Below, one piece after another: positions 40,123 through 44,765 of a stretch of 64,000 bases of DNA. The DNA is taken from assembly GCF_001999765.1 (NCBI RefSeq), contig NZ_MTIC01000003.1, forward strand, positions 310,001 to 374,000. Direction: 5' to 3'. Position 1 is the stretch's first letter. Each line of letters begins with the position of its first letter. Source of the DNA: Sinomonas mesophila. GTDB lineage: Bacteria > Actinomycetota > Actinomycetes > Actinomycetales > Micrococcaceae. The translations under genes and the position numbers were made by a program. Below the pieces are notes generated by a model. It made no database searches and was not told where the DNA came from. It saw only the letters and a list, made by a program, of their open reading frames with translations.

Positions 40123-40149
40123 GACGACGTCCACGGACATCGCTGGATG

Positions 40150-40222
40150 TGCCCTCGATAGGATTCGAACCTACGGCCTTCTGCTCCGGAGGCAGACGCT
40201 CTATCCCCTGAGCTACGAGGGC
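40150..40222 (-). tRNA. tRNA-Arg (anticodon CCG)
   Basis: 73 bases folding as a full cloverleaf: acceptor GCCCTCG/CGAGGGC, D-arm with AGGGGATAGAG, anticodon arm TCTGC-CTCCGGA-GCAGA (anticodon CCG, reading CGG), and T-arm GTAGGTTCGAATCCTATC. The discriminator is A and CCA is not encoded. CGG is a frequent codon in this GC-rich genome. Confidence 0.97.
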
Positions 40223-40350: not shown

Positions 40351-41247
40351 TCACGCGACGAGGAGGAGGGGGCGGTCGGCGAGGCCGACGGCGATCTCCT
40401 GCCCCCAGCCGGCATCGAGCCGGTCCGCCTCGATGCCGTCGCCGAAGACCACTAGCTGGCCCGACATGACGGTGATGCGGAGTTCCTCGCCGCGGGTCAG
40501 GACGCCCTCGGTCAGCGCGGTGCCTGTGGCGGGCGACGGCCACGCCTCGCGGACGAACCAGGCCAGCCGGCGCTCGGTCGGCAGGGGGAGGCGGCGGCCT
40601 CCGCGGTCCCTGGCGATGGACGCGCACCAGCCTGTCGAGCCCGTGCCGCTCGAGATGATGAGGCCGGACGAGGACTGCAGCTCGGAGCCGCCGTCCGGGG
40701 TGGCCACCGTGTATCGCGCCGATTGGTGGGACGCGTGGCCGACGAACACCTCATTGAGGGCGCAGAGCTCCTGGCCGTCGTCGAGCCGCGCCCGCACCAT
40801 CGTGAGCTCCTCGGACCTGAGGGCTGACGCCGAGGCCTCTGCTGCCGCGCCGATGAGCCGCACCGCCTCGTCCGGAGAATGCCGGACGAGGCTTCCCGCA
40901 TTGACGCCCGGCAGCGGATTGACGCCGATGACAGGCTGCCCGGCGAGGTACTTCGCGGTATTGGCCACGAGCCCGTCCTGCCCGACGACGGCGATGACGT
41001 CGTCCGGCTCCCACAGGAAGCGGCTGAGGTCGGAGCGCTCGATCTGGGCCAGACGCCAGGCAAGGGGGAGGGCCTCGCGGACCTGCTGCAGTGCGGCCCG
41101 GATGACGTCGTGCTGCTCCTCGACCTCCGACAGGCTTCGCCCCCGCAGCCCGAGGAAGAACTCCGCCTGGCCGCGCGTCGCGTGCCGTTCGAGGAGCTCG
41201 TCGAGCTCGGTGCGCCGGTGGACCAGGACGAGCCTCGGCTTTCCCAC
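40351..41247 (-). CDS. NAD-kinase-like protein (ATP-NAD/AcoX fold) in the NrtR/SPFH island
   Basis: 298 residues. The NAD kinase fold is recognisable: VVGQDGLVAN at 87-96 in place of the canonical GGDGT loop (catalytic Asp91 kept, second Gly and Thr changed to Gln90 and Leu93), then PVIGVNPLPG, an Asn-Glu pair at 165-166, and SSGTGSTGW at 199-207, the conserved NAD-binding loop. A normal NadK is expected elsewhere in the genome, so this may be a divergent kinase or a NAD(H)-binding sensor. The GTG start has AGGAGG overlapping the SPFH stop codon, so translation is coupled. See findings. Confidence 0.75.
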   Translation of the reverse strand: MGKPRLVLVHRRTELDELLERHATRGQAEFFLGLRGRSLSEVEEQHDVIRAALQQVREALPLAWRLAQIERSDLSRFLWEPDDVIAVVGQDGLVANTAKYLAGQPVIGVNPLPGVNAGSLVRHSPDEAVRLIGAAAEASASALRSEELTMVRARLDDGQELCALNEVFVGHASHQSARYTVATPDGGSELQSSSGLIISSGTGSTGWCASIARDRGGRRLPLPTERRLAWFVREAWPSPATGTALTEGVLTRGEELRITVMSGQLVVFGDGIEADRLDAGWGQEIAVGLADRPLLLVA

Positions 41248-41256
41248 GGGGGCCTC

Positions 41257-42303
41257 CTAGATCTCGTGGCTCGCCGAGCCCGCCGAGCCCGCCGAGCCCG
41301 CAGGGTGCGAGGCCAGGCGGGTCAGGGCCGCGACGGCCGAGGTGAGCATGTCCGGGGTGATGGTGAGGCTCTCGATGGCCGGGAGCCGTCCCGCCGCTTC
41401 GCGCAGGGCCAGGGCGAGGAGCGTGCCCTGGTCCACGGTCCGGTACGCGTCCAGCGCGGCGGCCTCCCTGGCCGCCTCTGCCTCGCCCACGATGCGGATC
41501 TGCCCTGCCTCGGCCTCCGCCGCGAGCCCGCGCTGCTCGGCCTGAGAGCGTGCGCCGATCAGGCTGGCCGCTGCATGCTCCTCGGCCTCGAGCCGGGCGT
41601 TCGCGCCCTCTTGGGACACGAGCCGCTCGCGCTGCGCAGCGAGCCGGATCTGGTTCGCGAGCTCGTTCTCGGAGATGGCACGCTCGCGTTCGACGGCGAG
41701 GGCCCGCCGCTCGTAGGTGGCCCGGTCGGCCTCCGACTGCAGCTGCTCGCGGACGGGCGTCTGCAGGGCGCGTTCCACGTCGGCCTCGGGGCGAACGGCG
41801 AGGACGCGGACCCCGATGATCCGGATTCCGGTGGTCACGAGGCGTTCGTCGCTCGCGAGCCCGGCCGAGAGCAGGTCGCGGAGCTCGCCGTTGCCCCGGG
41901 CGAGGGCCTCTGCCAGCGTCAGCGTCGCGAGGTGGTCGATGCTCAGGCTCTGGCAGAGCTGGCCCACGATCGTGGCCACCTGCTCCCGCCCCCGCGCCGG
42001 CCGCTTGGAGTCGTCGCGCATCGCGAAGTCGAGGCGGGCCGAGACGGTGACCGGGTCCGCGAAGCGGTAGGTGACGTTGGCTTGGACGCTCACATCCTGG
42101 TGGTCGCGGGTGAGTGCATGGAAGAGCGTAGGGAGTTCCTGGTCGTCTACCGGCACCTCGCTGAGCACCGAGGTCGCGGGGCGGAACCAGAACGCCTGGC
42201 CCACTCCCTGGTGCGTGACCACGCCTTTCTGCAAGTGCACGACGTAGCCCGTCGGGCTGCCCAGGAAGTGGTTGATCCAGGGATAGTGCCTGATGGTCGG
42301 CAT
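41257..42303 (-). CDS. SPFH/band 7 domain protein
   Basis: 348 residues without a signal peptide or membrane helix. An SPFH domain (about 10-190) is followed by a helical region rich in Arg, Glu and Ala (190-300; ISENELANQIRLAAQRERL) resembling flotillin coiled coils, and a short AGS repeat tail. SPFH proteins form large rings; here a cytoplasmic or peripheral assembly is likely. AGGAGGAGCC precedes the ATG at 42303. It is the first gene of an operon with the NAD-kinase-like gene, driven by a consensus promoter flanked by two NrtR-type operators. Confidence 0.8.
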   Translation of the reverse strand: MPTIRHYPWINHFLGSPTGYVVHLQKGVVTHQGVGQAFWFRPATSVLSEVPVDDQELPTLFHALTRDHQDVSVQANVTYRFADPVTVSARLDFAMRDDSKRPARGREQVATIVGQLCQSLSIDHLATLTLAEALARGNGELRDLLSAGLASDERLVTTGIRIIGVRVLAVRPEADVERALQTPVREQLQSEADRATYERRALAVERERAISENELANQIRLAAQRERLVSQEGANARLEAEEHAAASLIGARSQAEQRGLAAEAEAGQIRIVGEAEAAREAAALDAYRTVDQGTLLALALREAAGRLPAIESLTITPDMLTSAVAALTRLASHPAGSAGSAGSASHEI

Positions 42304-42324
42304 GGCTCCTCCTTGCCTCAATTT

Positions 42325-42339
42325 TCGTCAATATGACGA
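42325..42339. promoter_or_regulatory. NrtR-type operator 1
   Basis: TCGTCA-ATA-TGACGA is a perfect 15-base palindrome located at the expected transcription start of the SPFH operon (about 42340). It resembles the TTGTCA-n3-TGACAA core known for NrtR regulators. Binding here would block transcription. Confidence 0.75.
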
Positions 42340-42346
42340 TAAAGAG

Positions 42347-42375
42347 AATCTAGGCGGGGCGAGGATTATTGTCAA
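42347..42375 (-). promoter_or_regulatory. Consensus promoter of the SPFH/NAD-kinase-like operon
   Basis: On the minus strand a perfect TTGACA (42375-42370), a 17-base spacer and TAGATT (42352-42347) form the most canonical promoter in the window. The -35 box is inside operator 2 and the start site touches operator 1. Confidence 0.8.
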
Positions 42376-42387
42376 GGTGACGATAAT
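42365..42387. promoter_or_regulatory. NrtR-type operator 2, shared -35 region of the divergent promoters
   Basis: ATTATTGTCA (42365-42374), AGG, TGACGATAAT (42378-42387): a 10-base inverted repeat with one mismatch. It covers the minus-strand -35 box and, on the plus strand, TTGTCA (42369-42374), 18 bases before the TACGGT -10 box (42393-42398) of the nrtR-like gene. One bound repressor could therefore silence both directions. Confidence 0.75.
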
Positions 42388-42404
42388 ACGGATACGGTGA
42401 GGAC

Positions 42405-43133
42405 GTGCCTTCGACGCCTTCCCGCCTCCCGTGCCTTCCCGTAGCGGTCGACGTCGTCGCCCTGACCGTGCGGGACGGTTCGCTGAATGTCCTGCTCGTC
42501 ACCCGACTCATCGACCCCTTCAAGGGACGGCTCGCCCTGCCCGGCGGCTTCGTCACATCGGGAGAGGATGTCGGGGAGGCGGCGAGCCGGGAGCTCGCGG
42601 AGGAGACCGGCGTCGAGCGCGTACCTGGCCACCTCGAGCAACTGGCCACCTACGGGCCCAAGGGCCGCGACCCGCGAGGCGACGTGCTCACGGTCGCCCA
42701 CCTCCTGCTCGCGCCGGACTTCCCCGTGCTCGTCGCGGGCAGCGACGCGGAGCACGCCGACTGGTTCCCCGTGGCGGAGGCCCTCGGCGGCACGCTCGCC
42801 CTCGCCTTCGACCACGAGCGGATCCTCCGCGACGCGGTCGAACGCGCCCGCTCGAAGCTCGAGTACTCGCCGCTCGCGGCGGCGTTCTGCGGCGAGGAAT
42901 TCACGATCGGCCAGCTCCGGGCCGTCTACGAGGCCGTATGGGGCACGCGGCTCGACCCCCGCAACTTCCACCGGAAGGCCACGGGAACGCCCGACTTCCT
43001 CGAGGACACGGGAAGGGTCTCCTCCGGCGACGCCGGGCGGCCCGCCGCCCTCTTCCGGCTCGCCGACCGTGCCCGCGCCGAGCCCGGACGCGCGGTCCTC
43101 AACCCGCCTCTCATGCGGCCGCGCCCGCTCTAG
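42405..43133 (+). CDS. NrtR-type regulator: Nudix domain plus winged helix
   Basis: 242 residues. A Nudix domain (about 12-150) with a fully canonical box at 48-70 (GFVTSGEDVGEAASRELAEE then TGV) is followed by a winged helix (about 150-225; EFTIGQLRAVYEAVWGTRLD, RNFHRKATGTPDFLEDTG). This is the NrtR architecture, which senses ADP-ribose or related NAD breakdown products and represses NAD genes. The intact Nudix box suggests hydrolase activity may be retained. GTG 42405 lies six bases after TACGGT: leaderless. Operator 2 overlaps its promoter, so it is probably autoregulated and controls the divergent operon. Confidence 0.88.
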   Translation: MPSTPSRLPCLPVAVDVVALTVRDGSLNVLLVTRLIDPFKGRLALPGGFVTSGEDVGEAASRELAEETGVERVPGHLEQLATYGPKGRDPRGDVLTVAHLLLAPDFPVLVAGSDAEHADWFPVAEALGGTLALAFDHERILRDAVERARSKLEYSPLAAAFCGEEFTIGQLRAVYEAVWGTRLDPRNFHRKATGTPDFLEDTGRVSSGDAGRPAALFRLADRARAEPGRAVLNPPLMRPRPL

Positions 43134-43169: not shown

Positions 43170-43212
43170 GCCGTTCATCGGCCCCGCGCTGCGCGGGGCG
43201 CATCAGAACGGC
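43170..43212. terminator. Hairpin between convergent nrtR-like and HNH genes
   Basis: GCCCCGC-GCTGC-GCGGGGC (43181-43199) forms an inner stem, and GCCGTTC (43170-43176) with GAACGGC (43206-43212) an outer one. The right arm includes the minus-strand stop codon. Confidence 0.5.
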
Positions 43213-44765
43213 GGCGGGTCGTTGCGCACGACGACGGCGGGCGCATCGGGTGGCAAGGGAGCCGGAGCGTCCCCCGCTGGCGGGTCTTTGGGGGGCCGTG
43301 GCAGCGATGCCCCAAGGGGCGCCAGGCGCGGGCCGAGGATGTGTTCGCGGTCTGCGGGACCGACGGGGAACGTCTGGCCGAGGAGCGTCTCCCACACGAG
43401 CTCGCCCGGAACGACCGGTGGCCCCCCATCCGAGGCGCGGGTCCCCGCGGCTCGCCGCAAGTGGAACAGCGCGAGGGACTTGAGGGCATGGTGCTTGCGG
43501 CACAGGAGGGTCAGGTTGTTCGCGTCGGTGGTGCCGCCGTCTTGCCATTCGATCGTGTGGTCGACCTCGGACCGATGGGCGGCGCATGTGCAGCCGGGCA
43601 CGAGGCATTCGCCGTCGCGATACTGGATGAAGCGGCGCAGCCCCGCGGATGGTCGATAGGCGGTGCGGCCGAGACTGAGCGGGACGCCCTCCACGTCGGT
43701 GAGGAGCCGCTCCCAGGTCGGGGCGGCCGCGGCGAGCTGCCGGGCGGTCGTCGCGTCGATGACGCCATAGCCCTCGAGCTCGGCGACGTCATCCGAGGCG
43801 CCGAGCAGGACGGCCGCCGGGATGTGCACGACGATCTCGGCCTTGATGTTCGAGCTGAAGTCCTCTGGAATCTGAGGGGCAGAGCCCGCGCCGGGCTCGG
43901 CAGCTGTTGCCGAGGCCCCGACGGCGCCCTTGAGCATGGGCGCCTCCGCAGTGCCCGCCGGTGCGAGCGACAGGGCGAGGTGAGCGATGGTGTCGGCGCG
44001 CAGTTGCGGCAGCGTCCGGTGCTCGCCCTCGACGGCGTGCGCTGCGCGGGCGAGGGCGTCGACGCGCTCGTACATCGCGAGGCCGGTCTCGGCGGGCAGG
44101 AGCGCGGTGAGGGTGCACATGCCGTCCTCGGCGGGCTCGTACCAGACGCCCCGGTCCGCCCGGGCCTTGGCCTTGCGCACGGCGACGGACTCCGGGTGGA
44201 GGCGCTCGCGGAGGTCCCGTGCCACCCGGCGGAACTCGCCGGGCGTGCGGCGGTGCCCGGCACGGGTGCGCACGCGCTGGAGGGCCTCAGCCTCGAAGGC
44301 GGCTGCGGCGTCCTCGGGGAGCGTCCCTGCCTGCTCGACGAGGATGCGGGCGTGGGCCTCGGTGATGTCTCCCGAGGAGAGGGCCTCATAGGTGCCCTCA
44401 TGCCGGCCGACGAGCGACTGGGAGAAGTTCAGGGTTCGGGCCGCTGCATTCTCGGACGTGCCCAGCAGGAGCGCGAGCTCCGAGACGGCGACGGCGTGGG
44501 CATGGTCTCCGCCGAGCCGCGCCGGCTGGCCGGCACGTCCCTCGAGGGGCTCCTCGGCGATCAGGTGGGCCATGCGGTCCACGAGCAGAGCGCGCATGGA
44601 GGCATTGAAGGAATCCATATCCGCGATCGCCCGGAGTCCGTTGAGGACTCCCTCGAGCGAGTCGAACGTGTCCGGCGCGAACCAGAGTGTCCCACGGAGG
44701 GCTTCCGGATGGCGGGAAGCGAACGCGATGTCGGGCGGCAGCAGCCGTTCGGCCAGCATCGGCAT
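43203..44765 (-). CDS. DUF222 and HNH endonuclease domain protein
   Basis: 520 residues. The N-terminal two thirds match the helical DUF222 (13E12 repeat) type: RALLVDRMAHLIAEEP, LGTSENAAARTLNFSQ, LSSGDITEAHARIL. The HNH site at about 410-460 reads CLVPGCTCAAHRSEVDHTIEWQDGG..NNLTLLCRKHHALK, with both zinc cysteine pairs and the catalytic histidines. This family is multi-copy in actinobacteria and often associated with mobile DNA, but no ends or duplicated target site are visible here. TAGACT (44816-44811) is a likely -10 box. The upstream 100 bases are unusually AT-rich. Confidence 0.88.
   Translation of the reverse strand: MPMLAERLLPPDIAFASRHPEALRGTLWFAPDTFDSLEGVLNGLRAIADMDSFNASMRALLVDRMAHLIAEEPLEGRAGQPARLGGDHAHAVAVSELALLLGTSENAAARTLNFSQSLVGRHEGTYEALSSGDITEAHARILVEQAGTLPEDAAAAFEAEALQRVRTRAGHRRTPGEFRRVARDLRERLHPESVAVRKAKARADRGVWYEPAEDGMCTLTALLPAETGLAMYERVDALARAAHAVEGEHRTLPQLRADTIAHLALSLAPAGTAEAPMLKGAVGASATAAEPGAGSAPQIPEDFSSNIKAEIVVHIPAAVLLGASDDVAELEGYGVIDATTARQLAAAAPTWERLLTDVEGVPLSLGRTAYRPSAGLRRFIQYRDGECLVPGCTCAAHRSEVDHTIEWQDGGTTDANNLTLLCRKHHALKSLALFHLRRAAGTRASDGGPPVVPGELVWETLLGQTFPVGPADREHILGPRLAPLGASLPRPPKDPPAGDAPAPLPPDAPAVVVRNDPPPF

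Follow-up and report, generated by a model that had tools for sequence, protein, structure and literature searches.

A 64,000-nucleotide window of the Sinomonas mesophila genome (contig NZ_MTIC01000003.1, positions 310,001 to 374,000, forward strand) holds a module of three genes: an NrtR-type repressor and, divergent from it, a two-gene minus-strand operon encoding a soluble SPFH/Band_7 protein (SPFH) and a nicotinamide adenine dinucleotide (NAD)-kinase-like protein (NADKL). Our comparisons show a repressor with two predicted operators between nrtR and the coupled SPFH-NADKL operon, a pairing that is conserved among related loci. A preliminary description of this DNA had proposed an NAD-responsive three-part system acting, for example, during phage attack; the conserved trio, its predicted operators and a link to NAD metabolism held up, whereas the phage-attack role did not.

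Organization of the locus

Open reading frames (ORFs) read from the window confirmed all three genes at the positions noted before. The main features, in window coordinates, are as follows.

40351-41247, minus strand: NADKL, NAD-kinase-like protein, 298 amino acids, GTG start
41257-42303, minus strand: SPFH, soluble SPFH/Band_7 protein, 348 amino acids from the ATG at 42303 (the mechanically called ORF begins at TTG 42321)
42322-42342: predicted operator 2, TTATCGTCATATTGACGAAAA, 44 bp from operator 1 and just downstream of the -10-like hexamer
42347-42375, minus strand: putative SPFH-NADKL promoter, TTGACA-N17-TAGATT, recognized by eye rather than by a promoter scan
42366-42386: predicted operator 1, TTATCGTCACCTTGACAATAA, covering the -35-like TTGACA of the SPFH-NADKL promoter
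42405-43133, plus strand: NrtR-type repressor, 242 amino acids, GTG start

The starts of nrtR and SPFH are separated by 101 bp, and the divergent layout described earlier is borne out by both the ORFs and their family matches. Read on the minus strand, the TAG stop codon of SPFH merges into TAGGAGG, with the NADKL GTG 9 nt further on, in agreement with the reported overlap between the NADKL ribosome site and the SPFH stop. In relatives SPFH and NADKL are usually coupled: over 79 GTDB loci the two genes overlapped in 48 (mostly by 4 nt), lay 0-30 nt apart in 26 and were further apart in 5 (181 nt at most); locus L115, on a 3.4-kb contig, was excluded from the junction, operator-spacing and Nudix-box counts.

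Conservation of the three-gene unit

The survey comprised 198 genomes of the same order, 80 GTDB loci representing the best 80 of at least 586, and 11 of the 57 plasmid records with NADKL matches; adjacency past the best 80 GTDB loci is known from the plasmid records alone. Searching the order genomes with NADKL at E 0.001 gave 30 matches, 27 of them clear (E 1e-48 or better), and the weak ones (G036, G145 and G150; E 2e-6 to 3e-4) were not counted as orthologues. The SPFH profile matched 27 of the 198 genomes, the same 27 as NADKL; the sample is likely identical across the NADKL, SPFH and NrtR searches, since the genome labels shown agree. Within the 26 other genomes of the order SPFH adjoined NADKL in 26/26 loci (L051 being cut by a contig end), and a divergent NrtR adjoined in 22, the other four having a close NrtR on another contig. 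In G163 a contig break falls inside SPFH and NrtR lies beside the other half; the distal NrtR of G154 clusters with the module regulators on the NrtR tree, that of G079 is a partial match, and that of G112 clusters with the salvage-linked ones, so that G112 may be devoid of the module's own regulator.

The adjacency of SPFH and NADKL was equally constant in the GTDB loci (80/80, L115 cut) and in the plasmid loci (11/11, broken or cut in L166-L168). NrtR was present in 60 of the 80 GTDB loci, 59 times divergently and once, in L143, on the same strand, and an NrtR or Nudix gene occurred in 7 of the 11 plasmid loci, divergent and adjacent in 6. Records from Rhizobium, Methylomonas, Providencia, Cupriavidus and Proteus retained the divergent trio at 36-39% NADKL identity. 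When ORFs within 7.5 kb were compared all-against-all in 49 representatives, SPFH and NADKL recurred in 49 and NrtR in 36, and no further ORF family was found in more than 8 of the 49 neighbourhoods once shadow ORFs were set aside; the next one reached 8/49, at scattered positions, and recurring ORFs overlapping the trio in other frames (up to 41/49) were judged to be shadows from their offsets. A chance neighbourhood was rejected on this constant adjacency, the shared 27 of 198 genomes and the lack of any other recurring neighbour. The three families are thus conserved neighbours in related genomes, as had been anticipated, and the earlier proposal therefore withstood the first half of its own refutation test.

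In a sample of 396 genomes of the phylum, NADKL matches were found in 14, of which 12 were clear and two unclear (G268, at 9e-11, and G450, as two fragments). The module has its nearest relatives in the Micrococcaceae, and blastn detected no match to its DNA in E. coli at the nucleotide level. Altogether, the three-gene unit looks real, conserved and present in several bacterial phyla, and it is, judging from its neighbourhoods, self-contained. An apparent firmicute host, Sporosarcina beigongshangi, was rejected: its contig (L075, 66.5% G+C), with an Arthrobacter-like NADKL of 69% identity to that of the window, is probably misassigned and was not counted as a phylum.

Two neighbours of the module were also recorded. 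A tRNA-Arg(ccg) gene (40149-40222) adjoins it; a tRNA-linked island was rejected, any tRNA being present in 2 of the 50 other loci scanned. Beyond nrtR, the ORF at 43203-44765 presumably encodes a DUF222/HNH-like protein.

The NrtR repressor and its predicted operators

The regulator matched the Pfam families NUDIX (E 3e-18) and NrtR_WHD (2.2e-15), both above cut-off, and so displays the Nudix domain fused to an NrtR winged helix that marks regulators of this family; its match to the NCBIfam ADP-ribose-responsive repressor model (2.6e-33, 115.5 bits) lay under the cut-off of 400. The top PDB matches were 3gz5 (1.8e-28), which like 3gz6 represents Shewanella NrtR, and 5bs6, the AraR regulator. 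The Nudix box of the window protein is intact (G48-x5-E54-x7-R62-E63-L64-x-E66-E67-x-G69), as it is in 23/23 order sequences, 28/29 GTDB sequences, 9/11 distal, 6/10 second-paralogue and 9/11 salvage-set NrtRs, and in 0/6 distant ones (five plus the nadA-linked copy of the home genome); alignment A3 contained 19 of the 23 order sequences, chosen by hand. Signal hydrolysis by NrtR in actinobacteria is plausible in view of these residues.

The operator consensus, TTATCGTC-N5-GACGATAA, was drawn from 23 intergenic regions, some lacking two good copies. Across the 4.0-Mb home genome, searched at up to three mismatches, one-mismatch sites occurred only at the two operators and one extra site appeared at three mismatches, while a reversed-pattern control gave no match at the same threshold. 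A site with at most three mismatches lay within 200 bp upstream of SPFH in 59 of the 60 GTDB loci with NrtR (the miss being L143), a sample that shares genomes with the one from which the consensus was derived, compared with 13 of the 20 loci without NrtR and 56 of 4000 random windows. Two sites at up to four mismatches were found in 51/60 loci with NrtR and 9/20 without; their spacing in these 60 two-site loci was 33-34 bp in 47, 44-45 bp in 10 and other in 3, the two main classes differing by about one DNA turn. In the 34-bp class the sites overlie TTGACG and TATCGT, by eye a plausible -35/-10 pair.

Whole genomes were searched for 19 of the 20 GTDB loci without an adjacent NrtR (L115 omitted). 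A close NrtR elsewhere (best at least 307 bits) was found in 14 of the 19, and the operator before SPFH was kept in 12 of these 14 (not in L109 and L140); the other five had distant NrtRs only (147-184 bits), and a site before SPFH in one (L107, a variant). The best distal NrtRs had a site directly upstream of their own gene in 10 of 14 cases and none within the locus in 4, and ten genomes with a distal NrtR held 2-4 sites each at up to two mismatches, a few of them elsewhere, against 0 in the control. By conservation and rarity in the genome, a palindrome occurs in both the regulator's own and its target promoter, as is typical of the NrtR family. These data support the intergenic palindromes as predicted operators of this NrtR subfamily that follow the regulator when it is moved; the palindromes pointed out in the preliminary description are accordingly real, conserved (59/60) and track the regulator (12/14 versus 1/5).

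In the proteobacterial records no TTATCGTC-N5-GACGATAA site was found at three mismatches, and three gammaproteobacterial intergenic regions (L165, L166 and L172) carry a related TTAGTGTC-N5-GACACTAA-like repeat. Separately, several Streptomyces loci (L207-L213, L236) have a second NrtR paralogue with its own operator type, TTATAGTC-N5-GACTATAA, and Streptomyces phaeofaciens (L218/L235, G594:C39:62684) carries a perfect operator copy away from nrtR and SPFH, possibly marking a further target, with no clear gene picked out beside it.

Link to NAD metabolism

The nadA-nadB-nadC arrangement is known for NAD synthesis. The home genome has a second NrtR, which heads genes for NadA, an FAD-binding protein (NadB by position), quinolinate phosphoribosyltransferase and an aminotransferase-V protein of the cysteine-desulfurase type. 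Since this second NrtR heads nadA-nadB-nadC, the module NrtR is a dedicated paralogue and not, as could be read into the preliminary description, the NAD-synthesis repressor of the genome.

A close NrtR was found in 45 order genomes, 18 of them without SPFH-NADKL. Eleven NrtR regions not adjoining the pair were inspected, from eight module-free genomes plus the second copy of G085, G112 and G154. Three of them have an adjacent nicotinate phosphoribosyltransferase gene, one together with a confirmed isochorismatase-family nicotinamidase and NAD synthase, and two others contain PnuC-type and NadR-type (AAA_28) genes; because 5/11 regions around related NrtRs thus hold NAD-salvage genes, the link to NAD is supported. 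On the NrtR tree, built by a quick method with 32 of 78 forks open, distal and some salvage regulators fall among those of the module, which are separate from the nadA-linked NrtR and its kin. We consider a dedicated NAD-responsive repressor to be well supported by these comparisons. In G085, a member of the same family that has the module, two TTATTGTC-type sites precede a pnuC-nadR-nrtR-like row (L255 1842-1897), so that common operators may serve two related NrtR circuits.

The SPFH protein

SPFH matches Band_7 (E 1.2e-12, 48.7 bits versus a cut-off of 23.6), and hence carries an SPFH domain. The hydropathy profile contains no transmembrane-like stretch (highest 19-residue value, 1.13), in line with the membrane-less protein described earlier; values above 1.6 appeared in only 2 of 34 family rows (1.61 and 1.77), near residue 148 and within the domain. 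An AlphaFold2 monomer model from 20 sequences predicts a beta-rich SPFH domain followed by a single helix at 174-287 (mean predicted local distance difference test score, pLDDT, 83.1; predicted template-modelling score, pTM, 0.50). The underlying alignment A2 used 20 of 27 SPFH sequences, hand-chosen, with over-extended frames among those omitted.

The NAD-kinase-like protein

NADKL had no Pfam match up to E 0.1; its matches to the NCBIfam NAD kinases were weak, the best (1.5e-7) scoring 31 bits where the cut-off is 260. Its best PDB match was 'NAD kinase 2, mitochondrial' (NADK2), with E 4.1e-10 from the single sequence and 4.6e-14 from the profile; structures 7r4j and 7n29 are of the human enzyme. 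An NAD-kinase-like fold is predicted from these sequence matches; the AlphaFold2 model, from 26 sequences, was confident, with a mean pLDDT of 94.3 and a pTM of 0.90.

NAD kinases have three motifs, residues D85, N159, E160, T200 and Y202 of Ppnk being vital, and GGDG is said to be present in all of them (PMC8553519). By our alignment these five residues would pair with NADKL D91, N165, E/D166, T205 and W207. Conservation was counted over 34 rows, with the wrong-frame L143 row dropped (alignment A1 being without L051): D91, N165, E/D166 and W207 were found in 34/34 and T205 in 32/34. The NE/D motif and conserved region II of NAD kinases are therefore recognizable, with W replacing Y in 34/34, while GGDG is absent: NADKL reads GQDGLVAN where NAD kinases have GGDG(T), and GQDG occurs in actinobacterial, proteobacterial and Treponema rows. 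Lacking one defining feature, NADKL is not classed as an NAD kinase, although it may work like one. The family-specific stretches WFVREAWPS and FGDG.E.DR are strongly conserved in actinobacterial NADKL. Among the plasmid records listed, the usual annotations of NADKL are sugar kinase and hypothetical protein; two records call it an ATP-NAD kinase PpnK-type protein and many leave it unannotated, so that its naming could be made uniform.

Mobile and defence context

Neither the viral contigs nor the phage records contained a relative, and in a PADLOC search at up to E 0.1 SPFH and NADKL had no match and NrtR had a weak one (E 0.0011). Of 129 neighbour ORFs picked by a codon-position rule in 16 actinobacterial loci and the window, 120 were scanned against PADLOC, with 6 matches (mad3 three, mad2 two, GlgB one) that in our view represent generic models. 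Neither a described defence protein nor a defence-island context was thus found, a phage or defence origin is not supported by these scans, and the phage-attack role originally suggested is left without backing.

Some plasmid-borne copies merit mention. In the Acinetobacter plasmids pALWED1.1, pAST2 and pHHV216 (L166, L167 and L168) the immediate neighbour of NADKL is tetR-tet(H), and SPFH is either cut or out of frame; the copy of the module in Proteus mirabilis H63 (L172) adjoins tet(J). Near tet(H)/tet(J) the module looks like a passenger beside a resistance gene. The Treponema saccharophilum plasmid pTS1 (L169) carries, at 4-8 kb from its SPFH-NADKL pair, a HEPN nuclease, a DUF3990 gene and a Nudix gene of its own.

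Proposed function and alternative explanations

The reading we favour, with a confidence that falls somewhat short of even, is that of a self-contained NAD-stress module in which NrtR derepression leads to an SPFH assembly holding NADKL, which phosphorylates NAD(H) or a related adenylate. A metabolite of NAD breakdown, most likely ADP-ribose by analogy with established NrtR biology, would release NrtR; the actinobacterial repressor, its Nudix box mostly intact, may hydrolyse this signal and thereby reset itself. NADKL would sit in a soluble SPFH ring or cage and phosphorylate NAD(H), or a close adenylate with the same ribose. In this form the dinucleotide pool might escape cleavage by NAD-consuming enzymes; alternatively, NADP(H) might be increased as NAD is depleted. 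In favour of the module as a unit are the shared 27 of 198 genomes, the constant adjacency, the absence of other recurring neighbours, the predicted operators that follow the regulator, the NAD-salvage genes near 5 of 11 related NrtRs and the NAD-kinase residues that NADKL retains.

Several points weigh against this NAD-stress module, of which we infer the ligand, the complex and the product. ADP-ribose does release MsNrtR of Mycobacterium smegmatis from DNA, but according to PMC6800001 this took 50 mM, and a C. glutamicum relative is there said to bind DNA better with NAD; ADP-ribose is thus a weak candidate for the ligand of the module NrtR. An intact Nudix box was seen in 0/5 of the proteobacterial regulators examined, and hence signal hydrolysis would not be essential everywhere. 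No NAD gene was identified in 6 of the 11 NrtR regions, as judged through shared ORFs alone. The strong correlation of SPFH and NADKL pairwise distances speaks for the module (r 0.95 for all 66 loci and 0.90 for the 58 actinobacterial ones; 0.82-0.92 with NrtR), but these values ignore shared species history. GGDG is changed to GQDG in 33 of 34 NADKL rows and to GPDG in one, with Q90 at the second glycine, which makes the phosphoryl donor and the activity doubtful, and the home genome has another gene with a Pfam NAD_kinase match above cut-off and with GGDG.

Alternatively, NADKL could be a pseudo-kinase: it would bind NAD(P) or ADP-ribose, leave it unphosphorylated and serve as the sensor opening or closing the SPFH assembly, itself the true effector. 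A motif said to be universal in NAD kinases (PMC8553519) is replaced in actinobacterial, proteobacterial and Treponema rows, and the residues that align with the sugar contacts of NAD kinases, N165 and E/D166, are retained; the catalytic Asp in 34/34 and the region-II Thr in 32/34 would nevertheless be unusual for a dead enzyme, and we hold this to be rather unlikely. Slightly less likely is an arrangement in which a soluble SPFH-NADKL cage enzyme applies a new GQDG phosphoryl-transfer chemistry to an NAD-breakdown product and, with a Nudix-active repressor, closes a loop of sensing, converting and clearing; if true, this would constitute an NAD-damage response spanning actinobacteria, proteobacteria and spirochaetes. 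Somewhat less likely again is an active kinase on another substrate, e.g., ADP-ribose or other NAD-breakdown product, by which the module consumes or converts the signal of its own repressor: the dedicated control by an NrtR whose relatives lie partly on salvage operons, the altered GGDG and the conserved actinobacterial WFVREAWPS and FGDG.E.DR would suit it, whereas its remaining motifs resemble those of NAD kinases.

An ordinary accessory NAD kinase supplying NADPH in oxidative stress, with SPFH as a chaperone of no special meaning, would agree with the sequence similarity to NAD kinases and with NrtR control, typical of NAD genes; the occurrence of SPFH beside NADKL in all 80 GTDB loci and together with it in all 27 order genomes, and the family-wide change of the active-site motif render it improbable. 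More improbable still is an anti-phage or conflict system triggered when other defences destroy NAD, for which the patchy distribution (27/198 in the order; 14/396 in the phylum sample, 12 clear), the NADKL matches in 57 plasmid records and the self-contained unit could be cited, but which finds no support in the viral-contig, phage-record and PADLOC results given above.

Comparison with known systems

Text searches of the open PMC library, with subscription papers mostly outside their scope, returned no description of the NrtR-SPFH-NADKL trio. As far as searched, then, the NrtR and SPFH families and NrtR regulons are known, and the SPFH-NADKL effector pair and its operator are undescribed. 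It appears that many bacteria possess a dedicated and portable response to changed NAD metabolites, made of a soluble SPFH and an NAD-kinase-like enzyme, and a membrane-free SPFH tied to a nucleotide enzyme and an NAD-type repressor offers a small, testable case for SPFH roles and for responses to NAD consumption.

The module resembles known NrtR regulons in having a Nudix and winged-helix repressor beside its targets, a palindromic operator and a site before its own gene, and differs from them in what it controls, SPFH and NADKL rather than genes of NAD synthesis or salvage. The mycobacterial operator is GTTTTCGA-N7-TCGAAAAC, in contrast to TTATCGTC-N5-GACGATAA here, and MsNrtR has a Nudix box altered at three residues, with no hydrolase activity detected, whereas that of the module NrtR is intact (PMC6800001 for the mycobacterial data). 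With NAD kinases, NADK2 being the nearest, NADKL aligns at the NE motif, the SSG...TGTG.W region and the catalytic Asp; it differs in GQDG for GGDG, in having no Pfam NAD_kinase match and lying far under the NCBIfam cut-offs, and in its constant SPFH partner. SPFH proteins are mostly known as membrane scaffolds, and their usual partners are NfeD and proteases. The module SPFH shares with HflK and Erlin-1 an SPFH domain followed by a long helix, but it has no membrane anchor, its PDB profile matches to them reach only E 0.003-0.009, and its partner, unlike those of other SPFH/Band_7 proteins, is NAD-kinase-like.

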